DNA of 42,561 nt from Acidobacteriota bacterium (GTDB lineage: Bacteria > Acidobacteriota > Vicinamibacteria > Vicinamibacterales > UBA8438), in assembly GCA_002726085.1 (NCBI GenBank), contig PBRZ01000080.1, positions 54,925 through 97,485 of the forward strand, written 5' to 3'. The notes beneath the pieces are model-generated. The model had not been told where the DNA came from. It made no database searches and saw only the letters and a list, made by a program, of their open reading frames with translations. Positions 2,495 to 40,320 of the stretch are shown in pieces; the first letter of the stretch is position 1, and each line of letters starts with the position of its first letter. Both the position numbers and the translations under genes were made by a program.

Positions 2495-2524
2495 TTCTTC
2501 TGACTTCTGCCTTCTCGCTCCTCG
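2495..2524. repeat. Short TC-rich 7-bp-phased intergenic repeat
   Basis: Between purA and the peptidase gene the plus strand reads TTCTGAC, TTCTGCC, TTCTCGC in 7-bp steps. The same 7-mers recur in intergenic gaps at 14.8, 24.5, 27.9, 37.0 and 40.3 kb. This copy lacks the hairpin module present in the longer members. Confidence 0.5.
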
Positions 2525-13548: not shown

Positions 13549-13634
13549 CTGGGGCTCCGCCCCAGACCCCGGCTTCGTCGCTTGTGGGGCCCCACCGCCC
13601 CACGCCGTGCTTCGCGGGCGCGCACGTGCGCACC
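13549..13634. repeat. Structured intergenic repeat, copy A
   Basis: An 86-bp element in the convergent gap between amtB and the dehydrogenase gene. It starts with the hairpin CTGGGGC-TCC-GCCCCAG (13549-13565), continues with the palindrome GTGGGGCCCCAC and ends in GGCGCGCACGTGCGCACC (one mismatch from a palindrome). About 80 percent of it matches copy B at 27790-27875. A further GCCGCC-TCC-GGCGGC hairpin follows at 13635-13649. It may act as a transcription end signal for either side, though no T-run is present. Confidence 0.7.
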
Positions 13635-13663
13635 GCCGCCTCCGGCGGCCTGGGAAAGCGGTC

Positions 13664-14758: not shown

Positions 14759-14806
14759 GGCGAAGCCCTCCCGCTCCCTCCTGCCTCCTGTCTCCTGTCT
14801 CCTCGC
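14759..14806. repeat. TC-rich 7-bp-phased repeat with hairpin-type module
   Basis: On the minus strand this reads GAGACAGGAGACAGGAGGC in 7-bp steps, followed by a degenerate form of the module AGCCGGAGGGCTTCGCC. It lies in the gap between the CoA-transferase and the dehydrogenase. Related copies lie at 27931-27994 and 37015-37066. Confidence 0.7.
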
Positions 14807-24481: not shown

Positions 24482-24502
24482 CCGGCTTCTGACTTCTCGA
24501 AC
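24482..24502. repeat. Short TC-rich repeat remnant
   Basis: The plus strand reads GGCTTCTGACTTCTCG in the 39-bp gap between the two cytochrome b genes. It shares TTCTGAC and TTCTCG with the copy at 2495-2524. Confidence 0.35.
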
Positions 24503-27789: not shown

Positions 27790-27875
27790 GTGGGGCGCTG
27801 CCCCACACCCCGACTCGTCGCTAGTGGGACCCCATCGCCCCACGCCGCTTCCTCGCGGGCGCGCACGTGCGCGCC
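27790..27875. repeat. Structured intergenic repeat, copy B
   Basis: Matches copy A at 13549-13634. Its opening hairpin is GTGGGGC-GCT-GCCCCAC (27790-27806); compared with copy A the outermost C:G pair has become G:C, a compensatory change. It ends in a perfect 18-bp palindrome GGCGCGCACGTGCGCGCC (27858-27875). It lies just upstream of dcd. Confidence 0.72.
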
Positions 27876-27885
27876 GCCAGCCCAA

Positions 27886-27994
27886 GCTTTTGACTCTTGG
27901 CTCTAGGCTTTGGGCGCTCCACACGCTGTTGAAGCCGGCGAAGCCCTCCGGCTTCTCCTGACTCCTGTCTCCTGTCTCCCGACTCCTGGAGCAT
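27886..27994. repeat. TC-rich 7-bp-phased repeat with hairpin module, double copy
   Basis: The first block (27886-27913) reads TTTTGAC, TCTTGGC, TCTAGGC, TTTGGGC. The second (27931-27994) contains the hairpin GAAGCC-CTCC-GGCTTC followed by repeats of TCCTGTC type. Positions 27936-27970 are identical on the minus strand to 37031-37065, 35 bp in all. Confidence 0.8.
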
Positions 27995-27999
27995 ACGGA

Positions 28000-28194
28000 T
28001 CATCGTCTCCACCACATCAACAGCAGCGTCAGGGCGACGCTCGCCAGCACCGATGTCGCGATCGGGATATACACGGTCAGGTTGTCACGCCGATACACGA
28101 TGTCACCCGGCAGCCGTCCCAGGGGCAACCCGAGCATCAGCAGCGCGCCGACCCCTGCCAGCGCCAGGCCGGTTACGACCAGGATCTTTCCCAT
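28000..28194 (-). CDS. DUF2905 family small membrane protein
   Basis: A 64-residue protein of two membrane helices flanking GRLPGDIVYRRDNLTVYIPI, the DUF2905 core. Function is unknown. I start at the ATG at 28194, giving MGKILVVTG, since the family begins directly with the first helix; the frame is open 13 codons further upstream. It follows ndk after 45 bp on the same strand. Confidence 0.85.
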   Translation of the reverse strand: MGKILVVTGLALAGVGALLMLGLPLGRLPGDIVYRRDNLTVYIPIATSVLASVALTLLLMWWRR

Positions 28195-35426: not shown

Positions 35427-37013
35427 ATGAAGATCGTGATCGCCGATCCGCTGCCGTCATCAGCGGCTGAGCTGCTCCGAGACCAAGGCTGGAATATAGA
35501 TGCGAAGACGGGGCGCCCGCCCGAGGAGCTCTACGCAGCCCTTGCCGATGCCGACGCGTTGATCGTCCGGAGCGCCACCCAGGTCGATGCCGAACTGATC
35601 GCGAAGGCGCCCGGATTGAAGGTGATCGCTCGTGCCGGAACCGGCGTCGACAACGTTGACCTCGATGCTGCTAGCGCCGGCGGCATTCTCGTCGTCAACG
35701 CGCCCGGCGCCAACAGCATCAGTGTCGCCGAGCACGCCTTTGCGCTGCTGCTGGCATCGGCCCGCTCGATCGCCCAGGCCGACGGCCTGATGAAGGCCGG
35801 CCGCTGGGAGAAGAAGCGGCTGATGGGGACCGAGTTGCGGGGTAAGACGCTGGGGGTCGTCGGTCTCGGTCGAATTGGCCGCGAAGTCGTGCACCGGGCT
35901 CATGCGTTCGGCATGCGGTCCATTGCCCACGACCCCTTCATCACCGGCCAGATTGCGGCCGACCTCGATGTAGAGCTCGTGGAGCTCGACGACCTGTGCA
36001 CCCAGGCTGACTTCATCACCCTGCACGTGCCGTCGAGCGGCGAGCGACCGCTCTTCGACGCCGAACGGCTGTCGCACTGCAAGCCCACTGTGCGGATCAT
36101 CAACACCGCGCGCGGCACGCTCATCGACGAGGCGGCCCTAGGCGACGCTATCGAGCGCGGTGTGGTCGGCGGAGCCGGATTGGACGTCTACGAGACCGAG
36201 CCGCCCACCGCCACCCGGGTCATCGGCTTGCCGCAGGTGGTCGCCACGCCCCATATCGCAGGGTCCACACGTGAAGCGCAGGAGCTGGTCGGTCTCGAAA
36301 CCGCAAGTTGTGTGCGCGACTTCCTGCAGACGGGGATCGTGCGCAACGCCGTGAACTATCCCTCGCTCGCGCCCGAGGAGCTGAAACGGATTCAACCCTA
36401 CACGATGCTGGCACGCCGGTTGGGCGCCTTCTTGGGACAGAGCTCCACGGACCGAGTCGAGACGGTCTCTATCAGGTATTACGGCGAGCTGGCCGAGGGG
36501 AATAACGAGATGCTCGTCGGTGCGACCCTGGTCGGCTTCTTTGGCACCATGCTGTCGTCGAACGTCACGCCAATCAATGCGCGCGCAATCGCCAGCGAGC
36601 GCGGCATCGAAGTGATCGAATCGCGCAGCTCGCGCCCGCGGAACTTCACCAGCCTGATCTCGCTCAAGCTGCACACCGCGGATGGCGAGCGCTGGGCCGA
36701 GGGTGCGATCTTCGAGCACGCCGGTCCGCGGTTGGTTCTACTCGACGGGGTCACCGTCGAGGCCCCACTCGAGGGCACGCTGGTGGTCATTCGCAACAAC
36801 GACCAACCGGGTGTGATCGGAGCAGTCGGCACGATCCTCGGACGCCACACCATCAACATCGCGACCTTCGCGCTTGGCCGTGGACCGACAGGAGCCGTAG
36901 CGGTGGTCAAGATCGACCGCAATGGCTCCGACAACCAGCAGATCACAGATGCGGTGCTCGACGAAATCCGCGCCGTGCCAGCCGTTCAGCAAGTGGCGGT
37001 GGTTACCGTGTGA
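35427..37013 (+). CDS. serA: D-3-phosphoglycerate dehydrogenase (long type)
   Basis: First step of serine synthesis: 3-phosphoglycerate to 3-phosphohydroxypyruvate with NAD. The 528 residues are of the long type with an intervening ASB domain (about 315-445) and an ACT domain (about 453-528) that usually binds serine as feedback inhibitor. The NAD loop GLGRIG is at 146-151. Catalytic residues are Arg229 in NTARGT, Glu258 and His276 in ATPHIAGST. The ATG at 35427 follows GAGAAGAGAG; the frame is open upstream but non-coding in look. It is transcribed away from mdh. Confidence 0.97.
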   Translation: MKIVIADPLPSSAAELLRDQGWNIDAKTGRPPEELYAALADADALIVRSATQVDAELIAKAPGLKVIARAGTGVDNVDLDAASAGGILVVNAPGANSISVAEHAFALLLASARSIAQADGLMKAGRWEKKRLMGTELRGKTLGVVGLGRIGREVVHRAHAFGMRSIAHDPFITGQIAADLDVELVELDDLCTQADFITLHVPSSGERPLFDAERLSHCKPTVRIINTARGTLIDEAALGDAIERGVVGGAGLDVYETEPPTATRVIGLPQVVATPHIAGSTREAQELVGLETASCVRDFLQTGIVRNAVNYPSLAPEELKRIQPYTMLARRLGAFLGQSSTDRVETVSIRYYGELAEGNNEMLVGATLVGFFGTMLSSNVTPINARAIASERGIEVIESRSSRPRNFTSLISLKLHTADGERWAEGAIFEHAGPRLVLLDGVTVEAPLEGTLVVIRNNDQPGVIGAVGTILGRHTINIATFALGRGPTGAVAVVKIDRNGSDNQQITDAVLDEIRAVPAVQQVAVVTV

Positions 37014-37014
37014 T

Positions 37015-37066
37015 GCTCCAAGAAGTCAGAAGACAGGAGTCAGGAGAAGCCGGAGGGCTTCGCCGA
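37015..37066. repeat. TC/GA-rich 7-bp-phased repeat with hairpin module
   Basis: Plus strand reads AGAAGTCAGAAGACAGGAGT and then the hairpin GAAGCC-GGAG-GGCTTC. Positions 37031-37065 are identical to the complement of 27936-27970. It lies right after the serA stop, between convergent genes. Confidence 0.8.
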
Positions 37067-40282: not shown

Positions 40283-40320
40283 TCTCCTGTCTTCTGACTG
40301 TTGCCTTCTGCCTTCTAGGC
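40283..40320. repeat. TC-rich 7-bp-phased repeat
   Basis: Reads TCTCCTGTCTTCTGACTG followed by TTGCCTTCTGCCTTCTAGG in the pyrG-kdsA gap. It belongs with the other TTCTGAC/TCCTGTC copies and ends just upstream of the kdsA -10 box. Confidence 0.6.

Follow-up and report, generated by a model that had tools for sequence, protein, structure and literature searches.

Dispersed heptamer arrays of an Acidobacteriota genome as probable gene-less copies of a small S23-encoding mobile element

Heptamer arrays and hairpins in the window

The window, i.e. the whole stretch of 42,561 nucleotides analysed here (G000:C80:54925-97485; contig PBRZ01000080.1 of the Acidobacteriota bacterium assembly GCA_002726085.1), contains a repeat after the 3' end of a DUF2905 gene (28000..28194, minus strand; PF11146, 72.6 bits). 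A C/T-rich heptamer array of period 7 (27955-27986, score 16), with GNCAGRA units on the minus strand, directly adjoins a GAAGCC...CCCTCC...GGCTTC hairpin. This heptamer was designated family 1. The hairpin core, GAAGCCGGAGGGCTTCGCCGGCTTC, occupies the inner edge of the array on the minus strand (27931..27955) and gave an RNA folding z of -2.27. A remnant of a second heptamer family faces the array in the same gap (27889-27920, plus strand). It ends in TAGGCTTTGGGCGCTC (exact at 27904-27919), a motif that was also found beside an S23 gene at G000:C36.

A second long copy follows the 3' end of a 2-hydroxyacid (phosphoglycerate) dehydrogenase gene (35427..37013, plus strand; PF02826, PF00389 and PF19304). 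Sequence and array scan placed its family 1 array at 37021..37046, and the hairpin core GAAGCCGGAGGGCTTC follows at 37046..37061, both on the plus strand (folding z -2.23). The scan also gave a family 1 array at 14777..14803 (minus strand) with a variant core at 14762-14777, the RNA folding of which was no better than that of shuffled sequences.

Short arrays without a hairpin were present on the minus strand at 2498..2511 and 40285..40298. The latter is followed by degenerate units, and the orthologous gap in the related genomes G001-G003 differs. At 24482..24498 (minus strand), a remnant consists of half a hairpin plus one heptamer (CCGGCTTC beside a single unit); the orthologous gap of G003 has an array. 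Most of the window copies sit just after a stop codon. No T-run was found 3' of the hairpin stem, and the Rho-site and terminator readings were weighed on sequence grounds only.

The original prediction had described positions 27886-27994 as a C/T-rich heptamer array next to a GAAGCC/GGCTTC hairpin, and this was borne out at those coordinates. As one repeat, however, it holds only for 27931-27986, which is family 1, and 27889-27920 belongs to the second family. The predicted 35 identical bases were confirmed by an eye count between the 27.9-kb copy and the 37.0-kb copy, on the opposite strand, and the pair also gave a 45-nt inverted match of 93% identity. At least six copies had been proposed, all between genes. 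Five are arrays of at least two perfect units (starting at 2498, 14779, 27956, 37025 and 40285), all intergenic according to our own gene caller, but the 24.5-kb copy is only a remnant with one unit.

Abundance, anatomy and placement of the copies

The genome (G000) is a 4.64-Mb draft of 170 contigs with a completeness of 88.65%. The family 1 pattern CTYCTGNCTYCTGNC had 586 matches (304+282) in it, against 2 (0+2) for the reversed control pattern. The hairpin GAAGCCGGAGGGCTTC, with at most two mismatches, gave 120 matches genome-wide against 11 for its control. The second family (TAGGCTTTGGGCGCTC) has few dispersed copies (15 matches genome-wide, 4 for the control).

Arrays were scanned in a sample of 442.6 kb, which comprised the window and 20 stretches picked from contigs known to carry copies; genes were called by a simple script of our own. 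Of the arrays with periods of 5-12, 38 of 41 had period 7, and three replicates of a Markov resample of the same DNA yielded 2 arrays in total, each with a period of 6. Most arrays (45/52) were intergenic. The copies are not random microsatellites.

A copy, read along the G-rich strand, has (C)CAAGGA followed by two to eight GNCAGRA units. The hairpin core GAAGCC-GGAG-GGCTTC ends 37 of the 76 distinct arrays; GAAGCCGGAGGGCTTCGCC stood directly at the inner edge of 37/76 and in none of the shuffled flanks. The 39 arrays without the core count against the S23-element interpretation given below.

Thirty-five of the 37 cores were aligned, L078 and L041 being left out for their indels. The inner stem GAAGCC/GGCTTC was paired in 92.9% of the cells, and its variation was one-sided, mostly to G.U. 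Compensatory changes were absent from the inner stem, and in the outer stem they were in no excess over shuffles. The alignment therefore does not prove a selected structure, and the lack of compensatory changes also weighs against the S23-element interpretation.

Of the 43 sampled arrays flanked by genes on both sides, 37 had their outer edge at a distance of 5-35 nt from a gene, against 13.8 expected from random placement in the same gaps; the inner edge was equally near the next gene in only five. All five array pairs less than 500 bp apart faced inward, like the two ends of a single element.

Heptamers born by slippage and kept as regulator binding sites near gene ends, as proposed for the TAACTGA repeats of Beggiatoaceae, would also lie close to genes, as these arrays do. 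The available text on those repeats proposes a translational role near start codons (PMC4679880). Such an origin does not account for a hairpin core repeated at 37/76 arrays, for close pairs that always face inward, or for the S23 genes found within inverted pairs (see below), and we regard it as improbable.

Distribution among relatives and turnover

Family 1 gave 423, 385 and 521 hits in G001, G002 and G003, respectively, and no more than 51 in each of the 24 other genomes of the same family that were searched. The expansion is confined to the genus formed by G000-G003 (385-586 hits each). Elsewhere in the order, the heptamer type recurs patchily, and the named public genomes with the exact core are MAGs labelled Acidobacteria or Vicinamibacterales. 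The reversed pattern CNGTCYTCNGTCYTC was itself enriched in G030 (36+53), G052, G062 and G100, and therefore serves poorly as a control there, unlike in G000 with its 2 matches. Its enrichment in these four genomes points to other heptamer families.

Turnover was followed in 35 gaps from three regions of this genome, which were compared with G001, G002 and G003. The flanks of matched gaps were about 83-96% identical in G001 and 70-91% in G002 and G003. Arrays were often common to the relatives, but their length and content change. Gap 26 has an array of seven units where G001 has a short one, and gap 23 a 106-bp palindromic element where a relative has one of 205 bp. The array was absent from gaps 12 and 34 in G003 and from gap 20 in G002. 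Conversely, gap 1 contains an array in G003 and only a remnant in the window. No movement event was seen within this genome itself, which counts against the S23-element interpretation.

The copies had been predicted to form a small mobile or expanding repeat family, an idea that would have fallen if no further copies existed elsewhere in the genome. With 586 matches in G000, and 2 for the reversed control, that condition clearly fails. It is further supported by the expansion in this genus only and by the comparison at matching gaps, where copies are present in some of G000-G003 and missing in others.

S23 genes enclosed by the same heptamers

The S23/four-helix-bundle family (PF05635) is known from the intervening sequences (IVS) of 23S rRNA. 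G000 has two PF05635 genes (126.1 and 92.3 bits), both outside the window, the copies of which contain no S23 ORF. In gap 21, an inward-facing array pair encloses a gene, an arrangement kept in G002. The product is an S23/four-helix-bundle protein (PF05635, 126 bits; TIGR02436) with a solved relative in XCC0516 (2gsc); 2rld is another solved S23 relative.

The S23 gene at G000:C3 (12559-12864) lies inside GGCAGGA/TCCTGCC arrays, i.e. the heptamer of the window. At C36, the other S23 gene is enclosed by inverted arrays belonging to the second family, so that each of the two dispersed families has one S23-bearing copy in G000. Cyanobacterial relatives of the C3 protein (60-66% identity) carry units of the TCAGGAG type. 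The RNA of this genome's own S23 element at L069:12485-12940 folds into a long array stem around the ORF (z -4.74). Both elements of this genome lie between protein genes and not inside 23S rRNA, and are therefore called IVS-like.

Two observations count against the S23-element interpretation. The hairpin sequence at the S23 copy differs from that of the array-only copies. In addition, no PF05635 match was found in G001 and G003 (74% and 89% complete), which have more than 400 hits each; in these incomplete genomes, gene-less copies may thus persist without S23.

A reverse transcriptase partner was considered and rejected, as the G000 draft (88.65% complete) has no match to RVT_1 (PF00078). 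On this criterion alone, the elements also differ from diversity-generating retroelements, the Avd protein of which is a distant S23 homolog (NF033474, 38.6 bits; PF22296, 30.2 bits; both below the cut-off).

One S23 element of G000 (L109), that of gap 21, adjoins a Y-family polymerase-like gene (IMS_C). A gene that we read from its sequence as dnaE2-like follows the S23 element in both L109 and L139 (G069), and the heptamers of the two loci differ. This shared neighbourhood may represent a recurrent site, or an old one with turnover of the units.

Arrays around S23 genes in general

A set of 107 S23 loci was assembled from the two of this genome, 88 of relatives, and 17 from plasmids, where 35 records matched S23; a 108th, L157, was dropped as the same place as L133. 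Sixty of the loci from relatives were hand-picked, several from S23-rich genomes, so the loci are not independent. The controls were 295 other genes in 20 stretches from four of the genomes, all of one order. A locus was scored as matched if both flanks had arrays of equal period with inverse-complement units, allowing at most one mismatch.

At an array threshold of 10, arrays flanked 90 of the 107 S23 loci on one side or both, 65 on both sides, and 50 on both sides with inverse-complement units. The corresponding numbers for the 295 controls were 111, 12 and 0. At a threshold of 14, they were 79, 42 and 31 for the S23 loci and 67, 6 and 0 for the controls. Fisher tests of inverse-complement enclosure gave p = 4e-34 and 4e-20 at thresholds of 10 and 14, respectively. 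The 17/107 S23 loci with no array on either side at a threshold of 10 count against the S23-element interpretation.

Enclosed S23 loci were found in Acidobacteriota, Cyanobacteria and other phyla. Arrays scoring at least 14, counted before the duplicate L157 was dropped, had period 7 (86 arrays), 8 (19), 9 (10), 10 (5) or 6 (1). S23 was inside 23S rRNA only at L153, on an Azospirillum plasmid, among the loci tested.

The unit varies between S23 loci but tracks the protein. In a Mantel test of protein identity against unit distance at 59 of the 107 loci, r was -0.281, which was reached in none of 5000 permutations, and the mean unit distance fell from 3.48 for pairs below 30% identity to 1.73 for those above 60%. 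This covariation shows that arrays and gene stay together; shared descent alone could give the correlation. Array-only copies in G030, G042, G091 and G113 matched S23 units of their own genome in 13 of 41 cases, versus 9 of 123 for units of the other three genomes (Fisher p = 2.5e-4), with only part of each genome's S23 genes used.

Filled and empty sites on plasmids

Homologous sites were sought for nine plasmid loci with an S23 gene. An S23-less counterpart was found for eight of them, and six of these were simple (L144, L141, L143, L147, L140 and L150). None of the six simple S23-less sites contained an array (best scores 4-8). Those of L148 and L145 were complex, with 273 and 162 bp of other sequence, and for L149 no record among the matches listed fits both flanks. 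The cyanobacterial plasmid S23 elements L143, L146 and L148 lie between CRISPR genes (cmr2-cmr3, cas6-cas4).

The best pair was plasmid C of Trichormus variabilis (L144) and the empty sites L237-L239, with flanks 97.6-98.2% identical; three of the six S23-less records listed at 97.5-98.3% were thus compared. The sequence of the empty site is AAAAAGTAATTAACAAATAAATATG. When filled, the site has GTAAT on both sides of an insert of about 420 bp, which comprises both arrays and the S23 gene. The near-identical sites being array-free, the gene and both arrays must have arrived together, as an insertion of about 420 bp at a stop codon.

The possibility that S23 genes are mobile alone and land in pre-existing heptamer arrays failed at the sites that were compared. 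In its favour, arrays lacking S23 far outnumber those with it. Against it, the six S23-less homologous sites were array-free, and the two flanking arrays are in inverted and not in direct orientation. We give it almost no credence. The same six sites also speak against microsatellites kept for regulation.

Among the insertion sites, only that of L144 gave a clean short duplication. Four other sites had 11-25 bp of the target missing or unmatched with no duplication visible, and L141/L245 had only an imprecise overlap of 10 positions. Duplication is therefore not yet a general rule. Of the features of a MITE, inverted ends and gene-less copies are present, and the duplication was clean at one site, in the S23-bearing form only.

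Insertions were at or beside a gene edge, which in L144, L141, L140 and L150 was the stop codon of the gene upstream. By annotation, the compared inserts encode S23 only. At the L144 site, a further plasmid backbone (L244) has a truncated copy in which the left array and the beginning of S23 remain and the rest is lost. This copy is a step from the full element towards the array-only form.

The arrays might instead be ordinary miniature transposons moved in trans by a transposase of the host or plasmid, with the S23 gene as a mere passenger to which the inverted ends are of benefit. The inverted ends, the gene-less copies and the short duplication at one site would all fit, as would the array-rich G001 and G003 without an S23 match. 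On the other hand, the end is a tandem 7-mer that varies between S23 loci and tracks the S23 protein, unlike the fixed ends of transposases, and one passenger gene recurring in several phyla would be unexpected. We consider this the less likely explanation but a serious one.

Other repeats and transposase genes

Another interspersed repeat, of about 90 bp, was present in the window at 27790-27880 and 13568-13637. It has a palindromic GGGGC...GCCCC head and an TCGCGGGCGCGCACGTGCGC tail, and more than 20 further matches in G001-G003. G001-G003 contain dozens of copies, 82-94% identical, of a repeat of about 160 bp at L079:15504-15662 (G000:C49) that is MITE-like in size. An IS200-like TnpA gene stands at the very start of the contig of the window (G000:C80:48-491; L083), and a RAYT-like Y1 transposase gene lies at G000:C14:41600-42800 (L073) amid GCAGGGCTGAAGCCCTGC and CGCAGGCC..GGCCTGCG palindromes.

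REPs have GGAG beside a hairpin and occur at gene ends. GGAG likewise adjoins the hairpin at gene ends here, and with a RAYT-like gene present the copies could be a REP/RAYT family, i.e. hairpins moved by a Y1 transposase. This was rejected: the RAYT-like gene is amid different palindromes and is not flanked by the heptamer repeat, the IS200-like gene has no heptamers around it, and REPs are not made of 7-nt tandem units. The explanation is hardly tenable, and the C14 locus is a REP-like system separate from the heptamer arrays.

Discussion

We interpreted the dispersed repeats as S23-less copies, either single ends or two facing ends, of a small intergenic mobile element, with a probability of roughly 0.6. 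Underlying this are the observed architecture of gene and arrays, their inverted orientation, the covariation of unit and protein, the joint insertion and the truncated copy. The window copies are inferred to derive from, or to have been moved by, the S23 element of the same heptamer (G000:C3:12559-12864).

The full element of about 420 bp consists of a heptamer array, an S23 gene (PF05635) starting just inside it, and an inverse-complement array. Base pairing between the arrays in the RNA would give a long stem that encloses the gene, like that of 23S rRNA intervening sequences; that RNase III cuts this stem from the mRNA is inferred, without RNA data. The element would enter the minimal gap separating a stop codon from the gene that follows and, being cut out of the RNA between genes, would do little harm. 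With tandem units, the stem would tolerate slippage, and either end could lengthen. The DNA copying step and the chemistry of mobility are unknown.

S23 most likely takes part in mobility, and the action of a transposase in trans remains possible. That S23 itself is the mobility factor, and that it binds the arrays, is a hypothesis. By analogy with its solved relative, the protein is probably pentameric.

Small dispersed repeats of Nostoc, according to Elhai et al. in 2008, are said to be short stem-loops with heptameric arrays and are thought to be mobile. Among the closest known systems is the 428-nt IVS in the 23S rRNA of Coxiella, for which the available text reports tandem heptamers (GACAGAT) before the S23 ORF in a copy number that varies between strains (PMC4990558). 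This IVS was called a selfish element, its mobility being proposed but not shown. The same text reports that 23S IVS elements are cut out by RNase III and that an S23 relative is pentameric, and cites S23-encoding IVS in Leptospira (PMC4990558). Our elements resemble these in the S23 ORF of about 120 codons and the inverted flanks forming a long stem. Unlike them, they lie between protein genes, with units that vary between loci and hundreds of gene-less copies.

The GGGNATC heptamers of Xanthomonas and Nostoc are likewise dispersed intergenic 7-nt arrays, with 70 and 75 convergent inverted pairs in two Xanthomonas genomes (PMC4692102). The main text of that study has no occurrence of S23, and the available part generally found no association with mobile elements. 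The TAACTGA repeats of Beggiatoaceae, Cyanobacteria and Bacteroidetes are also abundant intergenic heptamer arrays of patchy distribution; their horizontal spread was suspected, with no evident mechanism (PMC4679880). They differ in lying mostly just upstream of start codons, with a proposed regulatory role and no S23 link in the available text. In the open-access PMC literature, as far as its available text goes, a general rule of S23 genes in heptamer arrays was not found stated; the 5' heptamers of Coxiella were.

A wider view is possible but remains tentative, and we would not presently expect it to hold in full. S23 proteins may be the sole protein of widespread mobile elements of about 420 bp without a known transposase or reverse transcriptase, each lineage recognising its own end word of 7 to 10 nt, and many unexplained heptamers in Cyanobacteria, Xanthomonas, Beggiatoaceae and Acidobacteriota may be their debris.

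The interpretation offers one origin for two puzzles, the role of the S23/IVS protein and the source of bacterial heptameric repeats. Since the link supplies a candidate protein, a predicted target (an inverted array of its own unit) and natural pairs of empty and filled sites, both mobility and binding are open to direct test. A further prediction is that in other genomes rich in heptamers, too, the S23 genes lie inside arrays of the same heptamer.
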